Virus record (IMG/VR): IMGVR_UViG_3300034072_000606
Span: 1-53,818 of that record
Direction: 5' to 3' (one strand)
DNA length: 53,818 nt
Source of the DNA: a virus
Below are positions 3,685-53,818 of the stretch, piece by piece. The notes beneath the pieces are model-generated. The model made no database searches. It was not told where the DNA came from and saw only the letters and a program-made list of their open reading frames with translations. Each line of letters starts with the position of its first letter. Positions within the stretch are counted from its first letter, which is position 1. Made by a program: the position numbers and the translations under genes.

Positions 3685-4078
3685 GGATCGCCTCATAAGC
3701 GTCGATCATCTTTTCCAGATAATGGATCGCCCGGTCAATATCATCGTGATCCAACCAGCAATCGATCATCGTTATCGCCACGGCGTCGTCGCTGTTCAGA
3801 TCGATCCCGTTGGACTTCAGGAAGTCATAACGGCGATGATCAGACCGCATTGGACGATTGAAGGCCGGAGGGCAATAAGTAATCCCCAGAGCTTTGATCT
3901 TCTGGAGATAGGTGATTGCCTTCTTGAGGCCCTGAACGCCGTCCTTCTTGCGCCAGCGGGTGACGTATTTGGTGGCGCAGCCCTCCAGATACCCGAGACC
4001 GGTTTCAGCGGCCCAGTCCCAGTGCTGATACGTTGCTTCGTAGTGATCCCCGCCGACCTGTTCAACGTGAGCGTTCAT
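3677..4078 (-). CDS. DUF3310 family protein (T7 gp1.7-like domain)
   Basis: A 133-aa protein with the DUF3310 signature: GGDHY near residues 9-13, HWDWA, and LEGCATKYVTRWRKKDG followed by an LKKAITYLQKI helix. T7 gp1.7, which carries this domain, has been described as a nucleotide kinase, so a nucleotide-metabolism role is possible. The C-terminal half has a similar helix (DRAIHYLEKMID), which may be an internal repeat of the first. It is coupled to its neighbours by a 4-nt overlap upstream (ATGA at 4075-4078) and an 8-nt overlap downstream. Confidence 0.8.
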   Translation of the reverse strand: MNAHVEQVGGDHYEATYQHWDWAAETGLGYLEGCATKYVTRWRKKDGVQGLKKAITYLQKIKALGITYCPPAFNRPMRSDHRRYDFLKSNGIDLNSDDAVAITMIDCWLDHDDIDRAIHYLEKMIDAYEAIHA

Positions 4079-4506
4079 CGGCTCGCCTCCTCAGCGAGAC
4101 GTTCAACCAGCTCATCCCAGGACGTCATCAGTTCAACGTCCGGGAGGGCAGTGAACACGCTTTCGTGACCCGGGGGAAGATGGTCGTGACCACCCTTACG
4201 CGGATCAAGGTCCAGCACCGCAATCGTGCGATGACCGAGTGCGTGGGCGTAGCCGAACTCAAACCATCGACCGCCGCCCCGGTTCTCAGACGCCTGCGGC
4301 TCGCCGATGAAGACGAGCGTATCAGCGCGGCGAACGTCTTCCACGTCTCGGATCGCGTGATACTGGATGTTGTCGCCAGCGGCTTCATCATCCCAAATCC
4401 AGCCGCCGGTGATCTCGTAACCGGCGGCTTGAAGCTTCGCCGCGACTTCCCGCAAGGCGAACCTCTGGGCATATTTGGCCGCAATGTAAATCTTACGCGT
4501 TTTCAT
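4075..4506 (-). CDS. Nucleoside 2-deoxyribosyltransferase-like protein
   Basis: A 143-aa Rossmann-like protein of the nucleoside deoxyribosyltransferase superfamily. Evidence: the first strand and loop KIYIAAKYAQR, YEITGGWIWDD, the acidic loop DVEDVRRADTLVFIG, and the GGRWFEFGYAHALG motif, which holds the expected catalytic Glu. It may exchange or hydrolyse the base of a (deoxy)nucleotide. Its place beside the thymidylate synthase homologue suggests nucleotide salvage or modification. I chose ATG 4506; it overlaps the upstream 57-aa gene by 14 nt. Confidence 0.8.
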   Translation of the reverse strand: MKTRKIYIAAKYAQRFALREVAAKLQAAGYEITGGWIWDDEAAGDNIQYHAIRDVEDVRRADTLVFIGEPQASENRGGGRWFEFGYAHALGHRTIAVLDLDPRKGGHDHLPPGHESVFTALPDVELMTSWDELVERLAEEASR

Positions 4507-4666
4507 CAATTATCACCGTGATGGTCTGTGGCGGCTTCTCTTTGAAAGCCGACCGTTTGATGTAGATTGACTCAAGGCCGCCGTCACCGGCCTTGAAACC
4601 ATATCGATAGCTGTTCTTGGGCTGGCGGTCGTCAGCCAGCAGCTCCATTTTGATTTTCAGCAGCAT
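4493..4666 (-). CDS. Small conserved-looking protein, 57 aa
   Basis: A 57-aa ORF with ATG at 4666 and GGAG six nt upstream. It begins inside the 3' end of the ThyA-like gene and ends inside the start of the deoxyribosyltransferase gene, filling the only gap in this operon. The predicted protein is short and beta-rich, with a mixed charged N-terminal half and a TITVII strand near the C-terminus. I recognise no domain. The overlaps and good ribosome site support it being real. Confidence 0.65.
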   Translation of the reverse strand: MLLKIKMELLADDRQPKNSYRYGFKAGDGGLESIYIKRSAFKEKPPQTITVIIDENA

Positions 4667-5744
4667 GATTCACTCCGTCATCCGCCGCCCGGGATCGCGA
4701 GCGAGCCCGGTTTGTGAGCCAAAGTGTGGCCCCCACCCTCCAGTCGTTGTCGGCTGGGATTTGTTCCAGTATCTCGGATGCGTCCAAAATACCGGTCTTC
4801 TTGCTCGCCTTGAAGGCCCGGTGAGCCATAACCATCGGGCAGGCGACCTTGCGCAGGAACGGCGAGCGAATGCCGATCCGGGCCGGGTCTTCGAAGAACA
4901 TGTTGATGTCTTCCAGGATTTCCTTTTCAGACTGCCCAGAGAACATATCCATCGGGCGCACGACATTGCGGCCATACGGGTCCTGGATCGGCTGACCGGC
5001 GGTCGGGTGAACCTTCGAAACACCCCACGGCCATTCGACCGGGGCCTTGTCCAGCGTGGACAGATAGGCGTGATAGTTGTTCGCCACCTGCCAATAGTAG
5101 CCCATCGGCACGCCGATCATCGCGGCAAGGTATTCCTGAAGGACGGAGAAGTGAACGGCGTTGGCGCCATAGGCCCCCCAGACCATATCGTTGGATCGGT
5201 TGAAAACGGTTAGGTTCAGCTTCCCGTCAACGATAGCCGGCAGGGCCATCAGGTTACACGGAATATCCTTGCCGCCGCGATCCGCAGCAGGCTGATCGGT
5301 TTCCGCGTCGTACATCTGGATGACAACGCGGCGGTCACTGGGGTCTTCCTTCAGGCGACGGATCGCCCACGCGAGCTGATCAAGCGTATTCAGCCGGGGA
5401 CTGTCGGCAATGAAATGCTTGCGCCAGCGGTGGCCATAGGCCCCGGGGACCGTCTTGCCATCATCGCTATAGCGCCCGAAGTCGGCGACGTAAGGCGTCA
5501 GGGCCTTGAGGTCGTTGCGACCGGCGATCATCCAGAGCGATTCAACGAGATGGAAGAAGGGGTTGGCATCCCGGACCTCGTTGAACAGGACGCGCTCCTG
5601 CGGGCAGGTGTAGAACGTGGACACCGGGCCAGGAAGAACCAGCACCGGGCCGTTCCGGGTCTCACTCTGGACGCCGTATTGGCGGATGATGTTAGCCCCC
5701 GACCAAAGGGCGTCGTTCACGTTGCGGGCTTCGATAGTGATCAT
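4632..5744 (-). CDS. Thymidylate synthase homologue, probable dUMP hydroxymethylase
   Basis: A 370-aa ThyA-fold enzyme. YGHRW (103-107), DRRVVIQMYD (138-146), the nucleophilic Cys163 in KDIPCNLMA and the FNRSND...AYGAN segment (181-195) are all visible. Asn195 aligns with the ThyA Asn that reads uracil (Asp in dCMP hydroxymethylases), so dUMP is the likely substrate. The active-site context differs from canonical ThyA PPCH, and the neighbours are DNA-thymine modification genes. I therefore infer that it makes 5-hydroxymethyl-dUMP rather than dTMP. ATG 5744 is chosen: it has AAGGAG upstream and overlaps the stop of the 50-aa ORF (ATGA). An ordinary thymidylate synthase is the alternative. Confidence 0.85.
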   Translation of the reverse strand: MITIEARNVNDALWSGANIIRQYGVQSETRNGPVLVLPGPVSTFYTCPQERVLFNEVRDANPFFHLVESLWMIAGRNDLKALTPYVADFGRYSDDGKTVPGAYGHRWRKHFIADSPRLNTLDQLAWAIRRLKEDPSDRRVVIQMYDAETDQPAADRGGKDIPCNLMALPAIVDGKLNLTVFNRSNDMVWGAYGANAVHFSVLQEYLAAMIGVPMGYYWQVANNYHAYLSTLDKAPVEWPWGVSKVHPTAGQPIQDPYGRNVVRPMDMFSGQSEKEILEDINMFFEDPARIGIRSPFLRKVACPMVMAHRAFKASKKTGILDASEILEQIPADNDWRVGATLWLTNRARSRSRAADDGVNHAAENQNGAAG

Positions 5745-5893
5745 TTCTTGTCTGTCTCCTTGGTCTTCTTGACCTTTGGTTTGCGACACAACGCAGGGAA
5801 ATTGTGGCGGTGTCTCGCTTCTTCGATTGCCGACCGGGAGACGTGGCCGCAAATACAGCCCCACGTCATCCGCCAATATGCAGAACGGCCCAT
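5741..5893 (-). CDS. Small putative zinc-binding protein, 50 aa
   Basis: A 50-aa ORF joined to both neighbours by ATGA overlaps (5741-5744 and 5893 region). It carries a C-x-C-G-H motif near residues 13-17, a further H-x-H and a Cys at 36, and a Lys-rich tail. This looks like a small Zn-binding or nucleic-acid-binding protein. Its position inside the modification cluster, between the ThyA homologue and an HMUDK/AADT-type gene, makes it a candidate accessory factor. No family recognised. Confidence 0.65.
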   Translation of the reverse strand: MGRSAYWRMTWGCICGHVSRSAIEEARHRHNFPALCRKPKVKKTKETDKK

Positions 5894-6870
5894 CAGTAGC
5901 CCCTCCCCGGAATGTATTGGGCTCTTGGCTTGCCCTCCCCGTTCTTAACCCGGAGGTATTTGTCCACTTCGCAGCAACAATTCTGAATGTCGCTGAGGTC
6001 GATATGCGGAACCCAAGGGGCGCGGAAGCGGTCCTGCTCCTCGTAAATCTGCCTCATTTCGTCCAGCCCCTGATCCTGAGACAGGTTGAAATTCACGTCG
6101 CGACCGGCGAGCCGATTGAGGCCGCGCCGGGACCCCGGGCCGACTGCGGCCCAAGTATTGATATCAGGCGCTCCCCGGAGATAACGGGTGTGGCGCATAT
6201 CCACGCAGACCTGATAGGCCATAAAAGGCCCCCAGCCGATATAGCGGGGGTGCTGGAACCTTGCCCAAACAGACTCCATAGCCAAGCCGCCTTCGGGCTG
6301 GTCTTCAAGGATCGCTTCCCATTCGTGACGATCCTCCCACAGGCGACCGATGACGATGCGGGCGACGTACTGCTGCTTGGTCCAGCTGTACCATTCCGCT
6401 TTCGGGTTGCTCTCAGCCCGGATCATATACGCCCCGGTGTAGACCTTCTCGCCTTGCTTCGACCACCAGTCAAGAGCCCTGCCGAGATTAGAGGGGCTGA
6501 AGATCGAAGAAGTTGGCCAAGGGTAGCCGCTCGCAATCAAAAACTGGAGCGTCTGCGGCCAGTTGATGTAACGCCCAATCGCGAGCATCAGCCAGAGGTG
6601 GCGGTCATCGGCGTAGGGATCGCGGATGTGCTCCTTGATCCATGCCGTCACGCGGTCTAACTCCCGGAAGACATTACAGAAGCGGTACGCCTTGAGGATC
6701 GGGTCGGCTGTAAAGACCCCGGACGGCAAGCCCATGTATTCTTCAGTGAACACTTCTTGGTTCACCGGCCATTGTAAAAGCTCGTTGCCGGCAGCAGCTT
6801 CTTTGCGCAGATAGATCGCGTGGCGCTCGTTGACCCAATTCCAGAGGGGCGCGGTGTCAAGGTTTGCCAT
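5893..6870 (-). CDS. 5-hmdU DNA kinase helical domain / amino-acid:DNA transferase-type protein
   Basis: A 325-aa mainly helical protein resembling the HMUDK-helical / aGPT-PPlase group found in phage thymine-hypermodification loci. Features: Trp- and Arg-rich helices, the FCNVFRELDRVTAWI segment near residues 65-80, and GWGPFMAYQVCVDMRH near 220-235, reminiscent of DNA glycosylase-type helix-hairpin-helix folds. These proteins are fused to or partnered with the P-loop kinase acting on 5-hydroxymethyluracil in DNA; here the two are separate genes. ATG 6870 has AAGGGG about 10 nt upstream. Whether it is the kinase's DNA-binding half or a transferase cannot be settled from sequence alone. Confidence 0.7.
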   Translation of the reverse strand: MANLDTAPLWNWVNERHAIYLRKEAAAGNELLQWPVNQEVFTEEYMGLPSGVFTADPILKAYRFCNVFRELDRVTAWIKEHIRDPYADDRHLWLMLAIGRYINWPQTLQFLIASGYPWPTSSIFSPSNLGRALDWWSKQGEKVYTGAYMIRAESNPKAEWYSWTKQQYVARIVIGRLWEDRHEWEAILEDQPEGGLAMESVWARFQHPRYIGWGPFMAYQVCVDMRHTRYLRGAPDINTWAAVGPGSRRGLNRLAGRDVNFNLSQDQGLDEMRQIYEEQDRFRAPWVPHIDLSDIQNCCCEVDKYLRVKNGEGKPRAQYIPGRGY

Positions 6871-7156
6871 TGATCTTAACCCCTTCAAAACCCAACCCCG
6901 TCATGAAGCAGCAAGCATGACCTTCTGTTTCCGGCGGCGTGACTCCGGGTTTGTTGGACAAGGCGTAACCGGTCGCAGAACAAAACAGACGCTCCGCGAT
7001 GGTCAGAGGACTCATTTCCGAAACCGCCGCCAATTCTATAACGGTCGGATGGTCGGAAAGATCGCAAATCATTCTGACGACCTTCTCGCCAAGGGGGAGT
7101 ACGATCTGAGCGACCTGTGAATTGGTCTTGGCGCTGAAGTCTTCGGCCTTGAACAT
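6857..7156 (-). CDS. Hypothetical protein in the modification cluster
   Basis: A 99-aa protein of unknown family. It has a central helical stretch (KVVRMICDL, TVIELAAVSEMS) and a Cys pair (HACCF) near residue 80. Start ATG 7156 overlaps the kinase stop (TGATG); a GTG one codon upstream is also possible. It overlaps the helical-domain gene by 14 nt, so all three are translated together. It may be a subunit linking the P-loop kinase to its helical partner; that is inference from position. Confidence 0.6.
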   Translation of the reverse strand: MFKAEDFSAKTNSQVAQIVLPLGEKVVRMICDLSDHPTVIELAAVSEMSPLTIAERLFCSATGYALSNKPGVTPPETEGHACCFMTGLGFEGVKINGKP

Positions 7157-7764
7157 CACGTCCTCCCGGACTTGAACGCAACGTAAGCCTTGAGGTCCTC
7201 AAAGGCGCGGTCGTGGCGTAGGTTGACGGTATCGATGCCGGCAGCATCGAATTTGGCACGGGTGGCGTTGATCGCCTTGATCTTGTCCCTGACCAGATCA
7301 ACCTTGATTTCCCGGGTCTCGCCCTTGGCCGCGATCTGACGAGCCCGGATGCGCTCAAGGCAAAGCTCCAGCGGCGTGTCGAGATAGGCGATGAGAACTT
7401 GCTCGTGATGAATCCGGTTGTTGTCCCGGAAGAAATCCAGCCAGCTCCCGGCAACGGTCGAAGCCAGAACGCCTTCGCAGAGGACGTGTTCAACCGAGCA
7501 ACCCAACTCCAAGGCATATTGGATCGCGCCCTGCTGGATAGCGAAAGATGGAATTGTGTCCATTCCTCCGCAGCCTTGTTTGTAGGACCCGATGGCCATC
7601 ACGCCGTTACCGGCGTAGCCTTCGACCCGAAGACGGCGCGACGGGTCTTTCTTGGTCGGCGCGTCGTAAAAGTTGAGGTCAACCGGGTCCGGGTTCTCGC
7701 CGATCATTTGACGGGCGAGGTGGGTCTTGCCTGACCCGTTTGTTCCACGAATATTGATGATCAC
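7156..7764 (-). CDS. P-loop kinase, probable 5-hmdU DNA kinase
   Basis: A 202-aa P-loop kinase. Walker A is GTNGSGKT (residues 7-14) right at the N-terminus; LCEGVLAST supplies a Walker B-like acidic site and LERIRARQ a lid arginine region. Small kinases of this form act on 5-hydroxymethyluracil in DNA in phage hypermodification pathways, making a pyrophosphorylated base for later amino acid transfer. Start is GTG 7764 with AAAAGGAGAACCAAC upstream. Promoter P2 (7788-7816) lies directly ahead, so it heads the transcription unit running down to the polymerase. A nucleotide monophosphate kinase is the alternative. Confidence 0.75.
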   Translation of the reverse strand: MIINIRGTNGSGKTHLARQMIGENPDPVDLNFYDAPTKKDPSRRLRVEGYAGNGVMAIGSYKQGCGGMDTIPSFAIQQGAIQYALELGCSVEHVLCEGVLASTVAGSWLDFFRDNNRIHHEQVLIAYLDTPLELCLERIRARQIAAKGETREIKVDLVRDKIKAINATRAKFDAAGIDTVNLRHDRAFEDLKAYVAFKSGRT

Positions 7765-7787
7765 GTTGGTTCTCCTTTTCTGATCCG

Positions 7788-7816
7788 ACCTTATCCCCGG
7801 AGTGGATAACAGTCAA
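7788..7816 (-). promoter_or_regulatory. Promoter P2 (kinase / ThyA / polymerase operon)
   Basis: -35 TTGACT (7811-7816), 17-bp spacer, -10 TAAGGT (7788-7793) on the minus strand. A CGGGGATAA box overlaps the -10, as at P1, P4 and P7. The -35 overlaps the last codons of the upstream transferase gene. The spacing and box match the other promoters in this genome. Confidence 0.65.
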
Positions 7817-8649
7817 GCCTTGCCAGTTGGGTAAACTGCGAGTAGGTCTTGGGCTCCCCAAGCGGCCAGCTCGCGGCGATGGTCCTGGGTGTCTTTCCCG
7901 ATGAAGTAATGACCCTTCCGGGCGCTCTTCCACTTACACAGGACGGTCTCAACCTCCTGGATGTTACAAAATCGGGAACTGGATTTGCCTTTGAAACCGG
8001 GGGCTAAAATCCCCGCGTAAGCATCAAGCAACATCTCAACAACTCTCTGAGGCGTCATACCCAAGTTGCCAGTAGGGTCGAAAATGGTTGACATCATTTC
8101 AGCCCCCTCTCGGGGGTCCTTGTAGAGCGTGACCAACTCCTCTGGAAACGTGATTGGAACGCCCAAAACACGCTCAAGCATATCAGCGGCCTTGAACGCG
8201 ATCCACGGGCCGAACTGAGGCCAGTCCATAGCCTTGTTGACCTGTTCAAGTGTCCGGCAACCCTCAAGGCTGATCACCGCCTCTTCAGGGTGATTGAACC
8301 GGGACCTAAGCCATTCAACGCTGTCAACGCATTTCTGGCCGCGCCAGTGCCGACGCTCGTGCGCTCTGGGCCAACGAGCGCCGCCGCCCGGGATGCCTTG
8401 GGATTGAGGCCCGCATCCATCCGGGTTTTCTGCGGCAAGATGAAGATATTGCCAGAACCGAGTGCCGGAGTGATCGCTGATCCAATAGCTCGCGCCGACC
8501 GAATAGCAGCACCAGTAGGCGAGCATAAAGCGACGAAGGCGCGAGCCCTTGACATCCCATTCCGTCAGGCCGACATAAAGCGGGTCATGGTCATTGGTAA
8601 GAATGAGTTTCCGGCCCCATTCAACGGGGTTGTTGATCAGGTCTGTCAC
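7813..8649 (-). CDS. Putative amino-acid:DNA transferase (aGPT-PPlase superfamily)
   Basis: A 278-aa protein resembling the alpha-glutamyl/putrescinyl-thymine pyrophosphorylase group, now viewed as amino-acid:DNA transferases. Recognisable are the N-terminal RFMLAYWCCYSVGASYWI block, FWQYLHLAA near residue 65, a basic stretch ARWPRAHERRHWRG near 91-104, and FGPWIAFKAADMLERV near 147-162. By analogy it displaces pyrophosphate from activated 5-hmdU in DNA with an amino acid, glycine in characterised cases. Start is GTG 8649, overlapping the FAD gene stop (GTGA). It is a second member of the superfamily next to 5893-6870. Confidence 0.7.
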   Translation of the reverse strand: MTDLINNPVEWGRKLILTNDHDPLYVGLTEWDVKGSRLRRFMLAYWCCYSVGASYWISDHSGTRFWQYLHLAAENPDGCGPQSQGIPGGGARWPRAHERRHWRGQKCVDSVEWLRSRFNHPEEAVISLEGCRTLEQVNKAMDWPQFGPWIAFKAADMLERVLGVPITFPEELVTLYKDPREGAEMMSTIFDPTGNLGMTPQRVVEMLLDAYAGILAPGFKGKSSSRFCNIQEVETVLCKWKSARKGHYFIGKDTQDHRRELAAWGAQDLLAVYPTGKA

Positions 8650-9479
8650 GTCAAAGCCTCCAATAGCTTGGCAGCGGCCCAGCCGGCAGCTGCGGTTCCG
8701 TTCTTCCCTCCGCCCGTCAGGCTCCAGAGCCCCGGGGCAACTTCTTCCAGCGCCGCCGGATCGCTTGTCTGGGCGAAGGGTCTGACGCCGATCCGAACCT
8801 CACCGCCGCCTTGACCGGCGAAGTCGGATATGCGCTTGGTGGATTGCTCTTCCCGCAACCCGTCCCAATTCTTCTCAAGGATCGCCGTGCCGTCCCCGGC
8901 CCAGTGGAAGCCGTCACAGGAGAACCGAACCAGCTGCTTGTACGGAGCCCAAACAGATATCCGGTTGTCTTCAACTTCCTTGAAGAGGCGCAGGCTCAAG
9001 CCGACCTTGCCGACGACCGGGACGCCGGTGATGAGCTGACGGGTCCAAGCGCCGCAGGCGACGATGACGTGTTTGGCGTTCGCGTGGTCAAGAGGGTTAT
9101 CGGGATTCAGAAACCTCACCCGATTGCCCCCGGGGTATGTCGAAACTTTTATTACCTTTCGCCCTATCCAATCAGGCCATTTCGCGTCCCGATCCATCAC
9201 CACGTCCGGGTTGATCCATTCCGCGTTCACGGAAACCGGGCCAGCTTTGAGCGAGACGGTGCGCAGACCATACAGCCTGTCTAGGAGCCTGAAAGATCGC
9301 TCCACGTTGTCCTTGCCCATCTTCTGGAGCCAGGACGGTTTCATCAGGCACCCGGCGGCGCGAGACCCGGAGCGGGGCCGACCGTCATCAATGATCAACA
9401 CGTCCATTCCTGCGTCCCGGAGCGCCGCCCCGGCTATGGAGCCGAAGAGGCCCCCGCCTACGATGATGACGTCACGCAC
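8646..9479 (-). CDS. FAD-dependent oxidoreductase/lyase of the modification pathway
   Basis: A 277-aa FAD enzyme of the DAO (glycine/amine oxidase-like) fold. It has an N-terminal dinucleotide motif IIVGGGLFGSIAG (5-17), an acidic strand end (VLIIDD), HVIVACGAWT (about 138-147) and a C-terminal WSLTGGGKNGTAAA that closes on the FAD. DAO-like flavin lyases in phage thymine-modification loci act on the amino acid attached to the base, releasing an aminomethyl group. That fits its coupling to the transferase gene. Start is GTG 9479 with AAAAGGAGAACCAACA upstream. Free amino acid oxidation is an alternative. Confidence 0.8.
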   Translation of the reverse strand: MRDVIIVGGGLFGSIAGAALRDAGMDVLIIDDGRPRSGSRAAGCLMKPSWLQKMGKDNVERSFRLLDRLYGLRTVSLKAGPVSVNAEWINPDVVMDRDAKWPDWIGRKVIKVSTYPGGNRVRFLNPDNPLDHANAKHVIVACGAWTRQLITGVPVVGKVGLSLRLFKEVEDNRISVWAPYKQLVRFSCDGFHWAGDGTAILEKNWDGLREEQSTKRISDFAGQGGGEVRIGVRPFAQTSDPAALEEVAPGLWSLTGGGKNGTAAAGWAAAKLLEALT

Positions 9480-9820
9480 TGTTGGTTCTCCTTTTCTGAC
9501 CTCCGGCGATCCATGCGCCGGGATTGGTTGATTTCCTTCGGGACGTATTCAAGGCAATCCGGGTTGACGCACAGGCTGAAGACGCACTTGTGATCCCGGT
9601 CGTGACCTTTAGGGAGCGGCCCCTTTTTCCCGATCACCTCACACGCGAAGCGATGAGCCCGGACGCGACCGATCTTGCGGTTGACATAGAATGTCCCGTA
9701 CCACTTCTTGTTTCCCTGACCCCGGCTACGAGCCCCTGTCCAGAACCAGCACCCGCAAGGGAGCTTGTCCACGTGCTTCATAAACCGATCTATTTCGGCT
9801 TGGGTTGCTTGGATGGTCAT
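9458..9820 (-). CDS. HNH endonuclease
   Basis: A 120-aa HNH-type nuclease. The zinc-finger/HNH pattern is clear: CGCWFWTG near the N-terminus, AHRFACEVIGKKGPLPKGH, DHKC and the CVNPDCLE motif near residue 90, followed by a basic tail. Such free-standing nucleases in phages are often homing endonucleases. ATG 9820 has AAAAGGAGCACTAC upstream. It overlaps the FAD gene by 22 nt and sits at the upstream edge of the modification cluster, so it may have moved in or may help spread the cassette. Confidence 0.85.
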   Translation of the reverse strand: MTIQATQAEIDRFMKHVDKLPCGCWFWTGARSRGQGNKKWYGTFYVNRKIGRVRAHRFACEVIGKKGPLPKGHDRDHKCVFSLCVNPDCLEYVPKEINQSRRMDRRRSEKENQQCVTSSS

Positions 9821-9844
9821 GTAGTGCTCCTTTTCTACTGCCTC

Positions 9845-9872
9845 AGCCCCCGCACTCAAAGAGCCGGGGGCT
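9845..9872 (-). terminator. GC-rich hairpin between membrane protein and HNH genes
   Basis: AGCCCCCG at 9845-9852 pairs with CGGGGGCT at 9865-9872 (8 bp, 12-nt loop). It lies 24 nt after the membrane-protein stop and just ahead of the HNH leader. There is no T tract, so it may be an attenuator or an mRNA-stabilising stem rather than a full terminator. Confidence 0.45.
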
Positions 9873-11107: not shown

Positions 11108-12105
11108 TTCAACCTCGCAACACCGGAGGACTTGTGAGCGGTTTGGGGATCGATCCCGACTTTCTCAGCTGCGTCGTACCCGGCCCAATAGGTGCTGGAA
11201 TCAACATCCGACTTCGGCGAAGCGCGGCGACCGCCCCGACGACGAGCCCAATAAGCCTCATCCGCCTTGCGTTGCTTCTCCTCTTCCTTGCGCGCCTCCT
11301 CCGGGTTCGCTGCGGCCCATTCCGCATAAGCCTTCTCAGCCGCAGCGGCTTCTTCAGCGGCTTTCCGGCGAGCTTCGGCCTGCTTGGCGCTCCAGCCCTC
11401 GCCATAGATGAAGTCCATGTTGGCTTCCCGCTCGCTCTTGCGAACGTCCGCAATCGTCAGAGTGGTCGCGGTCGATACCCCGGCGCGGGCGGCTGCGTGC
11501 TCAGCCTTGCGCTTGCGTTCGGCTTCCTCTTCCTCCAGCTGGTCGCGGCGGTCTTGAACCTTCTCGATGATACGGGCAGCAGCACCCTTGCGATAAGACA
11601 CGGCCCAACGGGAGAACCGCTGAGTGTTGTCGTTGTCGAGCCGCTCCATGACAAGCCGCTCAATCGTCTGCTCAAGATAGGAAGCCATGGATTGAGTGAG
11701 CTTAACGTTGACGATGCGACCAACAACGCGGTGCTGGTATTGGATCGACCAGACGTCATCCTTGTAGGTTGTACCGTCCCATTGCTTCCGGTTGACCTCG
11801 CGGCGGTGCCATTTCCGGCTCGTCCAGTACACGCAGAAATTCAGCTCAGAGACTGCGCGCCAGAGGTCACGCTGGTAGAGATACACTCCTCCCTTATGCT
11901 TTGCGTCCTCGCGCCGCCCTGACGTGCCGGAGCCCTGCTCAACCATCGCCATATCGATGTTGTAAGCCGCGAGCATCTCCTGGGCCTTGGCAGCAGCTGC
12001 GGCGGCTTCGGCCTCGTTTCCCTTCTGCCGGTTGGCGAGAGCCAGAAGTTTCTCAACCTTCTGGATGATCTTGATTTGTTCTTCGCTGAGGTCTTGCTGG
12101 CTCAT
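11104..12105 (-). CDS. DUF2786 domain protein with Ala/Glu-rich coiled coil
   Basis: A 333-aa protein. The N-terminal about 60 residues match DUF2786 (KIIQKVEKLLALANRQKG, then AKAQEMLAAYNID). The middle holds a YLYQRDLWRAVSELNFCVYW block typical of the domain following DUF2786 in phage proteins. Residues about 190-300 are highly charged and Ala-rich (coiled coil). The ribosome site AGAAATGGAGCACGAG precedes ATG 12105; the upstream in-frame ATG at 12117 is part of that leader and is rejected. Function unknown; linkage to the Toprim gene suggests a shared DNA-metabolism role. Confidence 0.75.
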   Translation of the reverse strand: MSQQDLSEEQIKIIQKVEKLLALANRQKGNEAEAAAAAAKAQEMLAAYNIDMAMVEQGSGTSGRREDAKHKGGVYLYQRDLWRAVSELNFCVYWTSRKWHRREVNRKQWDGTTYKDDVWSIQYQHRVVGRIVNVKLTQSMASYLEQTIERLVMERLDNDNTQRFSRWAVSYRKGAAARIIEKVQDRRDQLEEEEAERKRKAEHAAARAGVSTATTLTIADVRKSEREANMDFIYGEGWSAKQAEARRKAAEEAAAAEKAYAEWAAANPEEARKEEEKQRKADEAYWARRRGGRRASPKSDVDSSTYWAGYDAAEKVGIDPQTAHKSSGVARLK

Positions 12106-12130
12106 CTCGTGCTCCATTTCTGCGCTGGTG

Positions 12131-12157
12131 GAAGGAAAAGGGGGCTCAAGCCCCCTT
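12131..12157 (-). terminator. Rho-independent terminator after the 12146 gene
   Basis: On the minus strand, AGGGGGC-TTGA-GCCCCCT is followed by TTTTCCTT. The perfect stem covers 12138-12157 and includes the last codons and stop of the 12146 gene. It precedes the leader of the DUF2786 gene, so that gene depends on read-through or an undetected start. Confidence 0.75.
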
Positions 12158-13123
12158 CTTTACCGTGTGGGGAACCGGGGCGGTCATACCGGACGGCAGA
12201 ACCAGGTGATAACAATCTTCTTCAAAGCGCTTGACGGTGCGGATGCCGTAGCCCTTGACCTTGTTCATATCCCAGTTCATACCGGACTTGACGCTGACTT
12301 CCTTCCAGGGCTTCGCGCCGCCGGAAAGGGCCTCCAACAGCTCCCGCATAGTTGCGCCTTGAACGCGGGAAAGCATATCGACCAGAATGGCCTGCTTGGA
12401 ACCGGCGCGGCAGGGGTACGCCTTCTTCATCGGGGGAAGGTTGATGCCGGTGCCGCGACGGGGGGCGACCGGGGCGGCTTTCTTCGCCGGGGCCGGGATC
12501 GGGGCTGCGTTTTTGGCGTCTGCTTCCTTGATCGATTTGGCGATTGATACCGCGAGCTGCTCAGCGCGAGCTTCGGCAAGGTCCTGGAGATTTGCCCAAA
12601 GGCGCTTAACACCTGCGTCCTTGGTGGCGAAGCGCGAGACTTCGGCGATACCGGTGTTGAGCTCCTTGGCGGTCGTGTTGTAGAGCGCGACGAGCTGAGG
12701 GCCGGTGAGGTCGTTGAGGTCTTCCTGAGAAGCAGCAACATAATGGTCGGTTGAGGAAGCAACACCCGCGTTGTCGGTGAACTGAACGGCGAGATTTGCG
12801 AGGTCGATGATTGCGATATTCTTGGTCATTTTCGGGTTCTCCTTTTCTTCGGTGACGTAGTGAGCGATGAGGTCGAAAGACCGAAGGGCCTTTGCGTACT
12901 GCTCGGGGGTGCGGTTAGCCTTGAGATAAGCGAATTGCGACCGAACCTCTTCAATGTAGCTTTCGGTCATCTGGTCGTCTTGCTCTGCATTTTCAAATCC
13001 AGCAAGGTCCCAGCAGGTCGGGCAGGTCTTGGAATCAGTGCCCTGCTCGCCGGTCCAACGCGTGAGGTGGTCGCAGCAAGAGCAGGTGAAAGTCGAGGAA
13101 CCTTTTACGAAAGTCGAAACCAT
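12146..13123 (-). CDS. Zn-finger plus DUF3489-like protein, possible two-gene fusion
   Basis: A 325-aa protein. The N-terminus has a treble-clef-like zinc site (CSCC near 14-17, CPTC near 34-37). The C-terminus, about residues 240-300 (SKQAILVDMLSRVQGATMREL, then a WDMNKVKGYGIRTVKR segment), resembles the DUF3489 winged-helix domain. An Ala/Pro/Lys linker separates the parts. At 12829 an in-frame ATG is preceded by AAAAGGAGAACCCGAAA, the same leader used by other genes here. So a 227-aa C-terminal protein is probably also made, or two genes have fused in frame. Start ATG 13123 has AGAAATGGAGAACGACA upstream. It may be a DNA-binding regulator. Confidence 0.7.
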   Translation of the reverse strand: MVSTFVKGSSTFTCSCCDHLTRWTGEQGTDSKTCPTCWDLAGFENAEQDDQMTESYIEEVRSQFAYLKANRTPEQYAKALRSFDLIAHYVTEEKENPKMTKNIAIIDLANLAVQFTDNAGVASSTDHYVAASQEDLNDLTGPQLVALYNTTAKELNTGIAEVSRFATKDAGVKRLWANLQDLAEARAEQLAVSIAKSIKEADAKNAAPIPAPAKKAAPVAPRRGTGINLPPMKKAYPCRAGSKQAILVDMLSRVQGATMRELLEALSGGAKPWKEVSVKSGMNWDMNKVKGYGIRTVKRFEEDCYHLVLPSGMTAPVPHTVKKGA

Positions 13124-18032: not shown

Positions 18033-18584
18033 CTATTTGGGCTTCACCACGGCCTGCTTCCACATATGGACGCCGAGCAATTCAAGTGGCACGTCCTCGC
18101 CCTTCGAAAGCTTCTCGCGCACCAGAGACCCGAGTGTCTGCCAGTGGACCGACTGCTTGTGAAACGCCTTGGTCAGACCGGCGGCGCGCAGCGCGTCAAC
18201 GGCCTTCTTGATTTCTTCTTCCTTGGCCTTGCCGAGATCAACGTTGATCTCACTCTTGATGATCCCGCCGTTGCCGCCGTCCCGGAGCCACTTGAACGCC
18301 TCGCGTTCCTTCTCCTTCGTGGGCTGACCGCGTACCATATCGGTGATCGACACCTTGAGGCCGTCAATCGTGGTGAGCTCTTCCTGACCAGCCGCCGCCA
18401 TCAGCTCCGGCATAACGTCTTCCTGAAGCGTCTTCAGGTGTTGCTTCGCCTGACGCAGAGCCTCTTCGGCCTCGTCAACCGCGATCTGGGCCGCGAGGAT
18501 ATCCCGCGCCACGCCCGCGATCTGGGCCAGAATGTTATCGGTCTTGAGGGGTGCTTGGGCAAGTTGTTCGTAACTGGCAGTCAT
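18033..18584 (-). CDS. Conserved tailed-phage protein with N-terminal coiled coil
   Basis: A 183-aa protein resembling a family common in phage replication regions. It has a long Ala/Glu/Gln coiled coil (about 25-60), a DGLKVSITDMV strand region, REAFKWLRDGG, and a C-terminal HWQTLGSLVREKL...LLGVHMW module. The length is usual. It is encoded next to the SSB-like protein and may act on or beside ssDNA, but no activity is established that I can name. ATG 18584 has AAAAGGAGCACCACT upstream and promoter P4 ahead of it. Confidence 0.7.
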   Translation of the reverse strand: MTASYEQLAQAPLKTDNILAQIAGVARDILAAQIAVDEAEEALRQAKQHLKTLQEDVMPELMAAAGQEELTTIDGLKVSITDMVRGQPTKEKEREAFKWLRDGGNGGIIKSEINVDLGKAKEEEIKKAVDALRAAGLTKAFHKQSVHWQTLGSLVREKLSKGEDVPLELLGVHMWKQAVVKPK

Positions 18585-18609
18585 AGTGGTGCTCCTTTTC
18601 TACAGTGAG

Positions 18610-18638
18610 AGATTATCCCCGCTTCGGGGCGTTGGCTA
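18610..18638 (-). promoter_or_regulatory. Promoter P4
   Basis: -35 TAGCCA (18633-18638), 17-bp spacer, -10 TAATCT (18610-18615) with the CGGGGATAA box joined to the -10. The spacer forms a CCCCG/CGGGG hairpin as at P1. It overlaps the end of the 18613 gene and drives 18033 and the replication genes below it. Confidence 0.6.
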
Positions 18639-18975
18639 CTTCGAAGACTTGGGCTTCAATAGGTGTATACACCTTCTGGCGACCGTTCCACTGAAGAAAC
18701 CGAATGCGACCCTTGTTCACATCACATGCGACCGCCGCTGCGAGACCGCAGAGAACCGGGTTGCCGACCATCAAGAGGTAATCGTCATCACCGAAGTCCT
18801 CAAGAGCGTCCCAGAGGTCATTGATGATCGAGTCAGTTGCCCAAGGGGCAGCGGTGGGCGTGAGAAGAAACTTGAGGTCTCCGAATTTCTCAGCCGGGGT
18901 CAGATCGTAAACGGGCACATACGATCCGGTGGCCGTATCGTAACGCCTATGGTCTTGTACAACAAACACAGTCAT
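18613..18975 (-). CDS. Conserved phage protein of unknown function
   Basis: A 120-aa protein with a TVFVVQDH strand, YDLTPAEKFGDLKFLLTP, then DDDYLLMVGNPVLCGLAAAVACD and GRIRFLQWNGRQ. I recognise this arrangement from replication regions of many tailed phages but know no proven function. ATG 18975 overlaps the helicase stop (ATGA). A GTG three codons upstream is rejected as it lies further inside the helicase gene. Confidence 0.75.
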   Translation of the reverse strand: MTVFVVQDHRRYDTATGSYVPVYDLTPAEKFGDLKFLLTPTAAPWATDSIINDLWDALEDFGDDDYLLMVGNPVLCGLAAAVACDVNKGRIRFLQWNGRQKVYTPIEAQVFEVANAPKRG

Positions 18976-20453
18976 CTGATCCACTCCTTCATTTTGTCCC
19001 CGAGAATCACGCTGGCAACTTCAAGTTTCTTGACGAGCGCCTCAATCGCGTTTTCGTCCCGGGTTCCCGCGCAAACCAGATCGGTGTAGTCAACATGGTC
19101 AACTTGGCCGATACGGTGATTGCGGTCTTCGCTCTGAAGCCGCATGCGCAGATTGTAGTTATTGTTGAAATAGATAGTGGACTTGGCTTCGTTCAAAGTC
19201 AAGCCCTCGCACATTGAGACGTTCGCCACGAAGTCCGTTGCGTCGCCCTTTTTGAAATCGTCCTTGGCCTTCTGAAGCTCGTTGGACGACCGGGTGCCGT
19301 CATACCGGACGGGCTTGCGACCCATCTTCTGAAGGGTCTCCATTATCATCTCAACGTCCCGGGTCCAAACAGCCCAAGTGATCGCCTTCCCGGGGGTGTC
19401 TTCGATCTTTTCCTGATAGGCGCGCAGGCGAGGGTTGCGGGCGCGGTCGATTAGCTCAACCGGCTCCTGCCCGGCCTCGACCGGGAGATAACCGCAAAGG
19501 ACCTGCTGCATGCGGAGAAGACGGACGATTGCCAGAGGCGCGGCAATAAGCTCACCGCTCTCAAGGAACGTCATGAACTCCTCGTCAAGCTCCTTGTACA
19601 TCCGCGCCTGCGTCGGTGTCATCTCGTAATACCGCTTGCTGTAGAGCTTCTCCGGCAAGTCTAGGACCTGATCCTTGGTGACGCGACTGCTGATAAGCTT
19701 CAGAGCTGTGTACAACTCCTCAAGATTATTGTAGCAGTCTAGGATCGGATATTCAATAGTCTTCAGCCGACCCTTCACCATCTGTTTCGTGAAACCAACG
19801 TCCCACACACCGAAATATGCTTTGAAGGCCGTGAAGCTGTCAATATCAAGCTCTCGCTGCCAGAAATCCGGGTCCAGGAATTTCACCTGACTGTAAATGT
19901 CAAACGGTCCATTCGGAACCGGCGTGCCGGACATGATGCGACGATAGGCCGCGTGCTTGCCCCCGGCGAGGATCGACATTGTGGACTTCGCAGATGGCGT
20001 TTTGACGCGATGGGACTCATCAAGGCCGCAGAACACCCGGCGCTTCTTCATCATCTGCCAAACGGCCTTCTTCCCCATATCCGTCTGCCACGCCTCGTAG
20101 CTGATCGCGAGAAGCGGGAAGCGGTTGGTGTTGAGAAGGTTGCGGACCTGCTCCTGACGGTATTTTACCCCCGGGGTGTCGGGGTGGTAGGCGTGAAGCT
20201 CCATACCCTCCAAAAGCTCCGGCGGAAGATGGGTTGGCAACTCATCGGTGATCCAGTTGCGGTGAACACCGTTCGGGGCCACAATAATGGCTCCTTGAAT
20301 TTCCCCTTCAGTCCACAGGTGAGCGATGGTGTCAATATTGGGCTTCGTCTTGCCGCAACCCTGCTCCCAGAAAAGGGCGTAGTTTTCTGAAGACTTGTGC
20401 TCTTCAAAATGCTCTGCTTGGTGCTGGAAAGGCTTCGTGTAAGGGACGTACAT
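18972..20453 (-). CDS. SNF2-like DEAD/DEAH-box helicase
   Basis: A 493-aa SF2 helicase of the phage SNF2-like group. Walker A is EQGCGKT (30-36), Walker B DESH (145-148), motif III SGTPVPNGPFD, and motif VI RLQSEDRNHRIGQ in the C-terminal RecA domain. Both RecA-like domains are complete. Such proteins remodel protein-DNA complexes or branched DNA. The start is ATG 20453 with AGAAATGGAGCATCCA upstream; the ATG inside that leader (20465) is rejected. It is the first gene after promoter P5 and the TTAACTT array. Confidence 0.92.
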   Translation of the reverse strand: MYVPYTKPFQHQAEHFEEHKSSENYALFWEQGCGKTKPNIDTIAHLWTEGEIQGAIIVAPNGVHRNWITDELPTHLPPELLEGMELHAYHPDTPGVKYRQEQVRNLLNTNRFPLLAISYEAWQTDMGKKAVWQMMKKRRVFCGLDESHRVKTPSAKSTMSILAGGKHAAYRRIMSGTPVPNGPFDIYSQVKFLDPDFWQRELDIDSFTAFKAYFGVWDVGFTKQMVKGRLKTIEYPILDCYNNLEELYTALKLISSRVTKDQVLDLPEKLYSKRYYEMTPTQARMYKELDEEFMTFLESGELIAAPLAIVRLLRMQQVLCGYLPVEAGQEPVELIDRARNPRLRAYQEKIEDTPGKAITWAVWTRDVEMIMETLQKMGRKPVRYDGTRSSNELQKAKDDFKKGDATDFVANVSMCEGLTLNEAKSTIYFNNNYNLRMRLQSEDRNHRIGQVDHVDYTDLVCAGTRDENAIEALVKKLEVASVILGDKMKEWIR

Positions 20454-51346: not shown

Positions 51347-53720
51347 TTTCGGTCTCCTTGAGCTCGCCTTGTTCTTCGGCCTCTTCAGCAACGCTGACAT
51401 CAGGCCACTGATAAGGCCCGCCGAAGCGCTCATCAAAGTGAGCTCGCGCCTCATTCAGACCCGGGAAGGCGTAAAACCACGACTTGGTCTTCCGGTAGGT
51501 CGGATGCCCAAAGCGGTCGATCACCTCAACTTCAGCCATCTTCTGGAAGGTCTGCGGAAAGACCCCGGGGAGGACCTTCTTGAGGAACTTGCCCAGACCG
51601 GTCGGGGAGGCGCGGCGGTTGATCTTCTGCCGTTCGCAATACGCAAGATAGTCCTTCTGAAGGTCGAGCTTGGTGACTTCCGGCTTCCAGAAATCGCCAA
51701 TCAAATGTCCTTCGTTGAGCTTCTCGAACCACCACTGCTCCTCCGGGCTCATGGACATAATCTTCTGGTCCTGAAGGGCCTGGGTCTTGGGGAATTTGCG
51801 GACTTCGAAGTTGCTCAGGTCCCGGGTCTTCAGCAGATGAAGCAGGGCCTCGCGACCACCATTGTCCATCTGCTTCTGGATCGCGGCGAAGTAAGCCCCG
51901 TTCTGCATCGCCGTATCGCCAACGTCAATGATACAATAGCGCCGCTCGTCAGACCCGGCTGGCACCACCCAATCATCGTTGGAGGCCATACCAAGATGAA
52001 CGAAGTTGGAGGCCATTTCAGCGTCCACGCCCTTACTTTCGACCATCAGCAGGTCTTCAGTGATCAGCGTCTTCATGATGCTCTCGTGCTTCTTGTCGCC
52101 GGCATAGAAAGCCTCGTCGCCGAAGAGGAACACGCAGTCACGAAGGTGTGAGTTGAAGTTACCGACAAGATGTTTTGAGTCAGACACGTGAAGGTAATGA
52201 CGTCCCCAGAGCGATCCGAAATGCTTGAAGACGACGCCCTTGCCGGCACCCATTCGACCGCGCAGCACTAGCGCGACTTGGCCGGGGCTGTCGGGCTCCT
52301 GAACGGCGCGAGCCATCCAGTTGATGACGTATTCGCTCAGTTCCTCGTTGCCTTGGCAAACGTTCTCCTTGATGTGCTTCAGGAGCAATCCGCAATCGCC
52401 GGGGCGGGCCTCGCAAGAGAACCCCTGCCACAGATTGTAACTGTCAGAGACCTCCTTGCCCGGGGCGAAGACAATCGTGCGATATTGGCGGCGGTTCGTG
52501 TTTTCAAGCCACCACTTGCCCAAGGGCTTGCGCACGTCATTGCCGTCCTTGTCCTGACCCACGACAACCTGGATATGCATATAGCGGTTGCGGAAGTCGT
52601 CAAACGACTGACGGGATAGGCGGTGACGCTTGAGGGCCGGGTCCCAGACCTCACTCACCACGCGACATTTACCGCCGATGTCCTCAATCACGGCGTGTTT
52701 CTCGTTCAGCTCGCGCAGCCAAGGGTCAATGGCGTCTTCCTTGGCTCGCTGAATTTGACGAGCGAGGTATTGCTGGGGCCGGGGCTGGTCCAGGACGTGA
52801 CCGCTGATCAAATAGTCCGGGTCCAGGAAGATCGAAGCAATCTGATCATCTGTACAACCGTTGCGCACCAGCTCGCACATCACGTGCCAAGTCGCTTCCG
52901 ACCGCGAGCCCCACCGGGTCGGGTCGTCAGGATCGTCACCGTTGACGATGAGAGCCTTGGTGCGAGCCGTAACGGCTGAAGGCAGGTCGTCAAGGTCGAT
53001 GGTCGGAAGGTTGCCGCTGATCTGAACCTGCGGGCCGCTGCTGGTGGTCGTTGAGCCGGGGGTTTGGACGCGGGCGGCGGCTGTGAACTGCTTCAGGCTA
53101 TAGACCCGATCCCAATCAGCCTCCACGATACAGGCCAGATAGGTCCCGCGACCCTTCTTGCGCTTCTTCGCATTCGGCACGTTGATCGTACCGGGCAGGC
53201 GCATAATGCGGTCGATGTTGTGGCAGGAGTCAGCCTGCGTCAACACTTCGATCTGGAGATTGTACGCCTCCAGCTCTGCGGATCGGTCAAGGTCGCCGTC
53301 AGTGCGTTGCTCCTCGTCTAGCAACCAGAAGCCCTGATAGCCGCCGCCTGAATCAATGATTACAGTCGGTGGCGGCGTGAACCCCCTCAACAGGGATAGC
53401 GCCCGCTTGCGCTCGCTCTCCATCTCCTCGCCGGGTCGCGGATCGATATCCACGTGGAGCGCCGCCATAGCCCGGATATCTTCTTTTTTGGGCTTCATGT
53501 TCATCGGGCGCAGGAGCGGATTCACCGTGAAATAGATATTCTCCCGGCCTTGACGGTCGTCAATCCATTTACGGGCGTTCTTAGCGCGGTCGGGACCGGG
53601 TTGAAACGTCACTGTAATAATCTTGCCGTCCGGCACAATAGCGGTCAGCTGCCAGTTGTCTTCAGGAGCCCAGGCCTGAAGAAACTGGATTGATTCGGAT
53701 GTATTTCCCTTGATAGTCAT
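51330..53720 (-). CDS. DNA primase-helicase (AEP-like primase plus SF3-type helicase)
   Basis: A 796-aa bifunctional replication protein. HVDIDPRPG (89-97) is an archaeo-eukaryotic-type primase motif, with a DRIMRLPGTINVPNAKK segment near 170-186. The C-terminal helicase has Walker A RGRMGAGKG (487-495), Walker B FGDEAF (533-538) and an ASNDDW sensor motif, as in DUF5906/D5-like helicases. It should prime and unwind the phage genome for the family A polymerase. The start is ATG 53720, which overlaps the VRR-NUC stop (ATGA); an upstream in-frame start at 53786 lies inside the VRR-NUC gene. Confidence 0.92.
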   Translation of the reverse strand: MTIKGNTSESIQFLQAWAPEDNWQLTAIVPDGKIITVTFQPGPDRAKNARKWIDDRQGRENIYFTVNPLLRPMNMKPKKEDIRAMAALHVDIDPRPGEEMESERKRALSLLRGFTPPPTVIIDSGGGYQGFWLLDEEQRTDGDLDRSAELEAYNLQIEVLTQADSCHNIDRIMRLPGTINVPNAKKRKKGRGTYLACIVEADWDRVYSLKQFTAAARVQTPGSTTTSSGPQVQISGNLPTIDLDDLPSAVTARTKALIVNGDDPDDPTRWGSRSEATWHVMCELVRNGCTDDQIASIFLDPDYLISGHVLDQPRPQQYLARQIQRAKEDAIDPWLRELNEKHAVIEDIGGKCRVVSEVWDPALKRHRLSRQSFDDFRNRYMHIQVVVGQDKDGNDVRKPLGKWWLENTNRRQYRTIVFAPGKEVSDSYNLWQGFSCEARPGDCGLLLKHIKENVCQGNEELSEYVINWMARAVQEPDSPGQVALVLRGRMGAGKGVVFKHFGSLWGRHYLHVSDSKHLVGNFNSHLRDCVFLFGDEAFYAGDKKHESIMKTLITEDLLMVESKGVDAEMASNFVHLGMASNDDWVVPAGSDERRYCIIDVGDTAMQNGAYFAAIQKQMDNGGREALLHLLKTRDLSNFEVRKFPKTQALQDQKIMSMSPEEQWWFEKLNEGHLIGDFWKPEVTKLDLQKDYLAYCERQKINRRASPTGLGKFLKKVLPGVFPQTFQKMAEVEVIDRFGHPTYRKTKSWFYAFPGLNEARAHFDERFGGPYQWPDVSVAEEAEEQGELKETESDTPF

Positions 53721-53818
53721 TTCGTTCTCTTGTAACAAGAAGCCCAATAGGCAAGATCGGTCGGGTTTTGAAAGACGCGGTAACATTCGCGCCTTATCGT
53801 TTCTTCAGTCGGCGCGTC
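53666..53818. repeat. Terminal direct repeat, right copy
   Basis: Second copy of bases 1-153 with two substitutions. See the left copy. Confidence 0.95.
53717..53818 (-). CDS. VRR-NUC nuclease, 3' part (repeat copy, partial at contig end)
   Basis: The same gene as 52-477, cut by the contig end. Only about 33 C-terminal codons are present. Two synonymous third-position differences from the left copy are in the Ile-Arg-Arg segment. It should be merged with the left copy on circularisation. Confidence 0.85.
   Translation of the reverse strand, partial: DAPTEETIRRECYRVFQNPTDLAYWASCYKRTK

Follow-up and report, generated by a model that had tools for sequence, protein, structure and literature searches.

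Thymidine-hypermodification pathways are already known from several phages. In Pseudomonas phage PaMx11, gp46 and gp47 are reportedly the enzymes of a published pathway leading from Nα-glycyl-thymidine (Nα-GlyT) to 5-aminomethyl-deoxyuridine (5-NmdU). In phage M6, of the 5-NedU type, the tailoring enzymes act on a glycine-derived group, and AADT family members of other phages, such as ViI, use other amino acids. Here we describe a gene cluster of this kind in the virus record IMGVR_UViG_3300034072_000606 of IMG/VR, whose 53,818 bases, taken whole, we call the window. We propose, at a probability of about 0.82, that the cluster encodes a complete pathway of the PaMx11 type, with unacetylated 5-NmdU as its predicted product.

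All genes of the cluster lie on the minus strand. They are transcribed in the order HNH endonuclease, DAO-type flavoenzyme, AADT, P-loop kinase, a small gene at 6857-7156, HMUDK_hel, an open reading frame (ORF) of 50 codons, ThyA homologue and a nucleoside 2-deoxyribosyltransferase (NDT)-family gene. A first-pass annotation, made from the letters alone, had named most of them between 4632 and 9479; they are present there, and profile searches against the HMUDK, aGPT-PPlase and DAO families bear it out. HMUDK_hel (PF18723, E 8e-42), HMUDK_HMUD1 (PF18748, E 6e-9), ADDT (PF18724, E 1e-17), Thymidylat_synt (PF00303, E 6e-18) and DAO (E 3e-11) all score above their Pfam cut-offs. A PADLOC scan found nothing beyond one spurious match to an FAD domain.

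The last two enzymes and the predicted product

The flavoenzyme (8646-9479), a predicted FAD-dependent lyase of DAO fold, aligns from end to end with the 'Flavin-dependent lyase' of PDB entries 8z2o/8z79 (273 residues, E 1.5e-58). For the AADT protein (7813-8649; aGPT-Pplase2), predicted to install glycine, the top-ranking PDB entry is the 'Glycinyltransferase' 8z2m (E 1.2e-47). Searches with the PaMx11 proteins showed that chains 8z2o and 8z2m are 100% identical to gp47 and gp46, respectively, and both window proteins are full-length homologues of these enzymes. The motifs GxGxxG (FAD-binding), CLMxPSW, WAPYxQ and TGGxKNGT are invariant among the flavoenzymes of six phages; together with the length and E-value of the match, they place the window protein among the lyases homologous to gp47. 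We take structures 8z2o and 8z2m to stem from the 2024 study of Wen and colleagues. The title of that article covers both the Nα-GlyT and the 5-NmdU hypermodifications (Wen et al. 2024, 10.1093/nar/gkae784).

For the transferase, family membership and a glycinyltransferase as nearest solved homologue point tentatively to glycine as its amino acid. The rival reading that survives best is that AADT installs another amino acid, for example serine or alanine, from which the flavoenzyme yields the same 5-NmdU or a different product. Identity to PaMx11 gp46 is only about 40%, and the relatives in ViI use other amino acids, which leaves room for this. We consider it unlikely given the glycinyltransferase match, and the AADT clade of the window includes proteins partnered with M6-type radical-SAM and PALP enzymes, whose substrate in M6 is a glycine-derived group.

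A second rival concerns the flavoenzyme, which could oxidise differently or inefficiently and leave virion DNA with mainly Nα-glycyl-thymidine, 5-hydroxymethyl-deoxyuridine (5-hmdU) or 5-formyl-deoxyuridine. DAO enzymes are usually oxidases, and two related loci (L085, L049) that have no recognised tailoring gene may stop at glycyl-thymidine. This outcome seems improbable to us, as the motifs shared with the PaMx11 enzyme, itself named a lyase, extend along the whole protein. A functional analogue is the flavin half of MnmC, a DAO-type flavoenzyme that turns cmnm5U into nm5U and thus likewise builds an aminomethyl-uracil out of a side chain that stems from glycine, but in tRNA. PaMx11 gp47 stays far below the cut-off of the MnmC1 family TIGR03197 (26.6 versus 174.2 bits, with only the FAD-binding N-terminus matched), and the 25 best families listed for the window flavoenzyme do not include TIGR03197.

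We also looked for the enzymes that would lead elsewhere. Radical-SAM enzymes were not found in the window record, in loci L006, L007 and L008, or in RHph_TM26, PaMx11 and ViI; PALP-type enzymes dependent on pyridoxal phosphate (PLP) were sought in the same set without ViI, and none was found. Both were detected in the positive controls M6, Pam3 and RHph_I65. The window record thus holds neither half of the radical-SAM and PALP pair that marks M6-type 5-NedU formation, in agreement with the first-pass observation of a flavin enzyme standing without radical-SAM or PLP partners. More broadly, a Pfam scan of about 30 window proteins, most of them encoded outside the structural region, contained no PLP family, and hence no candidate for the PLP decarboxylase that goes with the serine-derived side chain of the ViI-type 5-NeOmdU system; in the structural region, PALP was the one PLP family looked for. 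Neither a GNAT acetyltransferase (PF00583) nor a homologue of PaMx11 gp48 occurs in the window record, so that the gene expected for an acetylated product is missing. The absence of radical-SAM, PALP and GNAT genes therefore makes unacetylated 5-NmdU the predicted end product; 5-aminomethyl-deoxyuridine had already been suggested in the first pass, and homology to the PaMx11 lyase and glycinyltransferase now supports it. The record probably represents a whole genome: its ends (1-153 and 53666-53818) form a terminal repeat of 153 bases that are 98.7% alike.

The pathway would then run as follows. A dCMP deaminase would supply dUMP, from which the ThyA homologue would make 5-hmdUMP, and 5-hmdU would take the place of thymidine during replication. 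The P-loop kinase and its helical partner would phosphorylate some of the 5-hmdU in DNA, and AADT would swap the phosphate for glycine to give Nα-glycyl-thymidine. Finally, the FAD lyase would take off the glycine carbons as glyoxylate, leaving 5-NmdU. The positive charge of this base would be expected to impede both restriction enzymes and glycosylases acting on 5-hmdU. By analogy with other hypermodified phages, 5-NmdU probably protects the phage DNA from host nucleases; resistance to many restriction enzymes is documented for the modified DNAs of M6, ViI and PhiW-14 (PMC6449724).

To place this gene set, we gathered loci with AADT and FAD alignments, about 110 from viral contigs and 2 from bacterial metagenome-assembled genome (MAG) contigs, which gave 91 distinct AADT loci after removal of duplicates. 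One of the two MAG loci (L138), from a Gammaproteobacteria MAG, carries a whole cluster. The core of kinase, HMUDK_hel and thymidylate synthase (TS) homologue is nearly constant. A FAD lyase without radical-SAM accompanies it in 36 of the 91 loci, 10 of which also have an acetyltransferase, so the gene set that the first pass had called unusual is in fact common. Radical-SAM and/or PALP genes are present in 47 loci, and neither tailoring type in 6. FAD (38 loci) and radical-SAM (48 loci) genes occur together in 2 of 91, against about 20 expected if independent, in a sample whose loci are related, are often fragments and were partly fetched via AADT or FAD themselves.

In the two mixed loci (L044, 8863-13494; L084, 8962-14097), the DAO-type flavoenzyme and the radical-SAM enzyme both stand beside AADT, and this pairing could give another product. 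Two further AADT clusters without known tailoring genes (L074, 5326-6276; L104, 9609-10748) carry a Rossmann-like 'HIEGMG' protein, a candidate new tailoring enzyme; the L074 protein has no Pfam match.

Besides the dependence among the surveyed loci, several points weigh against 5-NmdU as the product. Amino-acid choice and lyase activity are carried over from PaMx11 enzymes of only about 38-42% identity, and the biochemical details of the pathway are those that Lee 2022 and Wen 2024 reportedly give. The acetyltransferase of PaMx11 is missing from the window, and two small accessory genes may add or tune a step. Substrates, step order and product are predictions.

The predicted 5-hmdU kinase, precursor supply and small genes

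The P-loop protein (7156-7764) is the predicted kinase subunit and carries the Walker A motif GTNGSGKT; its gene holds the same position in nearly all loci surveyed. The HMUDK helical protein (5893-6870; aGPT-Pplase1) is the predicted DNA-binding part. Its AlphaFold model (22 sequences; pLDDT 89, pTM 0.87) has as neighbours among viral predicted structures the HMUDK helical proteins of RSL1 and PhiW-14 and the 5-hmdU DNA kinase of SP10, followed more weakly by AADT proteins and then endonuclease III-like folds. Its length of 637 residues suggests that the SP10 kinase unites both parts in a single chain. Because the helical protein matches this apparently fused kinase, the most natural reading of the two window proteins is that together they make up one 5-hmdU DNA kinase. 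The two Pfam matches above cut-off and the SP10 fold match agree in assigning them to this family. Against the PDB, HMUDK_hel gave only weak matches to OGG1 glycosylase (E 0.8, TM 0.32), a hint rather than a result.

The first pass had counted two AADT-type proteins. The one at 7813-8649 stands, whereas the other belongs to the kinase as its helical part. The resemblance has a basis in the models, by which HMUDK_hel and AADT share a fold, while profile comparison between them gave no significant sequence similarity.

Kinase genes show some variation and one naming problem. PHROGs family 800 is called 'terminase small subunit', yet its N-terminal region matches the P-loop kinase, and kinase genes bear the same label in the PaMx11 and M6 records; for the kinase this label is a misnomer. 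Locus L008 has three tandem P-loop kinase paralogues (11148-13028), and the contig of L007 (G002) a second HMUDK_hel gene (18275-19084). An extra P-loop kinase-like gene adjoins the tailoring gene in both RHph_TM26 (L001, 9855-10346) and RHph_I65 (L003, 9974-10462), that is, with either tailoring type.

The classical ThyA active site contains Cys-His. In the ThyA homologue of the window (4632-5738; phrog_5131, E 1.5e-113), a proline is followed by Cys-Asn, and Cys-Asn is invariant in each of the 78 aligned phage homologues extending over the active site, in line with the altered active-site context remarked on in the first pass. The phage homologues also retain the RSND, Asn, His and Tyr positions. 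The best PDB match is a CMP 5-hydroxymethylase (E 7e-17), with all thymidylate synthases ranking lower. This match and the family-wide Cys-Asn therefore favour dUMP hydroxymethylation: family, PHROGs and PDB matches and active site all place the protein among ThyA-like dUMP hydroxymethylases, which supports, short of proof, the predicted activity. A dCMP deaminase-like protein encoded at 905-1327, also on the minus strand (PF00383, E 1.2e-17; orthologues in RHph_TM26, RHph_I65, Pam3 and PaMx11), likely supplies the dUMP.

Both small genes noticed in the first pass are real. The protein encoded at 6857-7156, between kinase and HMUDK_hel, is 81-82% identical in L006, where differences fall 10, 8 and 37 times on the first, second and third codon positions, the third dominating; it is weakly similar (22%) in RHph_TM26 and RHph_I65. 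Its model shows three confident helices and a disordered C-terminus; searches of Pfam, PHROGs and predicted folds gave no match. In other phages, different small proteins occupy this slot.

The 50-residue, zinc-ribbon-like protein encoded at 5741-5893 (CxCG...EARHRHNxPxLC, a CxCG...HxH...C pattern) has a counterpart in the same slot of RHph_TM26 (71% identity, E 2e-8). In both, its ATG overlaps the HMUDK_hel stop codon (TGATG). A similar protein occurs in RcSimone-Hastad (59%, E 1e-4), where no annotated cluster adjoins it. The same slot holds an Nmad5 gene in Pam3 and L007; we rejected the idea that 5741-5893 is a remnant of it, as the ORF is intact and conserved, with no likeness to Nmad5 visible by inspection (no formal alignment). 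For both small proteins, a helper role in binding or regulation is more probable than a catalytic one. That one or both of them, or an unrecognised gene, elaborate 5-NmdU into a new nucleoside is very improbable: they are conserved within the operon and match no family, but at 50-100 residues they belong to no catalytic family, their zinc ribbon and helical bundle point to the binding of DNA or of proteins, other small proteins fill the kinase-to-helical slot elsewhere, and the 50-residue protein recurs away from any annotated cluster.

Exchange of the last enzyme among relatives

Tailoring types were mapped on an AADT tree, built by a quick method with SH-aLRT support only. The flavin or radical-SAM label changes at least 15 times on this tree, and 5 of these changes are forced by strongly supported branches. 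The clade of the window (20 rows, support 100) comprises 16 radical-SAM and 4 flavin members, and in it RHph_I65 (radical-SAM) and RHph_TM26 (flavin) are sisters with a support of 99. Phages of the same clade whose AADT proteins are 54-71% identical carry either enzyme. The tailoring gene precedes AADT in this clade for both types and follows it in M6 and PaMx11; FAD genes inside the clade are 69-88% alike. The tailoring enzyme has been repeatedly swapped among the relatives of the window. This fits a shared glycyl-thymidine substrate, on which the last step would be exchangeable.

The HNH endonuclease gene (9458-9859; phrog_1872, E 4e-20) abuts the tailoring gene of the window. In 17 of 85 loci, with either type, such a gene is no more than 500 bases away from the tailoring gene, and the window protein is 74% identical to the one adjoining the radical-SAM gene of Pam3. 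The HNH endonuclease is a possible agent of cassette exchange.

A second replacement may have occurred at the other end of the cluster. The sequence leaves space for a further gene downstream of TS in 58 loci. A YfbR-like/HD gene fills this space in 42, none of which has an NDT-family gene; the latter is found in 4 (the window, L006, RHph_TM26 and L039), none of which has the HD gene. Since PF01966 missed most genes of the HD slot, these were sought with custom profiles, and PF12917 provided the name of the slot; the RHph_I65 protein falls just under the YfbR-like cut-off (24.5 versus 25.9 bits). The NDT-family protein of the window (4075-4509) matches PF05014 at E 3e-4, and the L039 homologue passes the cut-off of that family; a solved-structure search with the window protein gave no match. 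It is a reasonable idea, drawn from few loci (four, all related), that the NDT-family protein replaces the YfbR-like 5'-deoxynucleotidase non-homologously for the removal of dTMP (or dNMP). We offer only tentatively, and with more doubt than belief, the wider scheme in which an NDT-family N-glycosidase takes this role in the window and its three relatives, destroying dTMP by stripping off its base and so opening the way for 5-hmdU into DNA, and in which the final step is a swappable cassette that alternates, next to an HNH endonuclease, from 5-NmdU (flavin) to 5-NedU (radical-SAM) or back within one phage lineage.

Comparison with known systems

The hypermodification chemistry itself is already known; what is new is a lineage of Pam3-like and Rhizobium phages with repeated swaps of the last enzyme. 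The nearest kin found for the window are Rhizobium phages RHph_TM26 and RHph_I65 and Pseudanabaena phage Pam3, a cyanophage with a contractile tail (PMC9382816). Our analysis establishes that the enzymes are there, to which families and folds they belong, that they are homologous to the solved enzymes of PaMx11, and that the last step has been exchanged among relatives. The flavin-lyase (5-NmdU) branch would thereby extend from the PaMx11 group of Pseudomonas phages to the Pam3-like lineage, in which close relatives keep the installation core of kinase, AADT and hydroxymethylase and exchange the enzyme deciding the final base.

In PaMx11 (NC_028770, gp46-gp51), orthologues of AADT, FAD lyase, P-loop kinase, HMUDK_hel and TS are contiguous and co-directional, at 31-44% identity to the window. 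PaMx11 has in addition the acetyltransferase gp48 and the HD gene gp52, both lacking in the window, which for its part has the two small genes and the NDT-family gene. AADT comes before FAD in PaMx11, whereas FAD comes before AADT in the window. RHph_I65, Pam3 and Pseudomonas phage M6 share the core of kinase, HMUDK_hel, AADT and TS, but have a radical-SAM and a PALP enzyme where the window has the FAD lyase.

The nearest annotated complete cluster is that of RHph_TM26 (MN988465; 68% nucleotide identity over 81%). It has the FAD enzyme (72%), the small genes and the NDT gene in common with the window, and differs by the additional P-loop kinase-like gene, placed between AADT and FAD, and by the lack of an HNH gene abutting FAD. 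Together with RHph_I65, it forms a natural matched pair for the effect of a single DNA-base change on restriction and host range.

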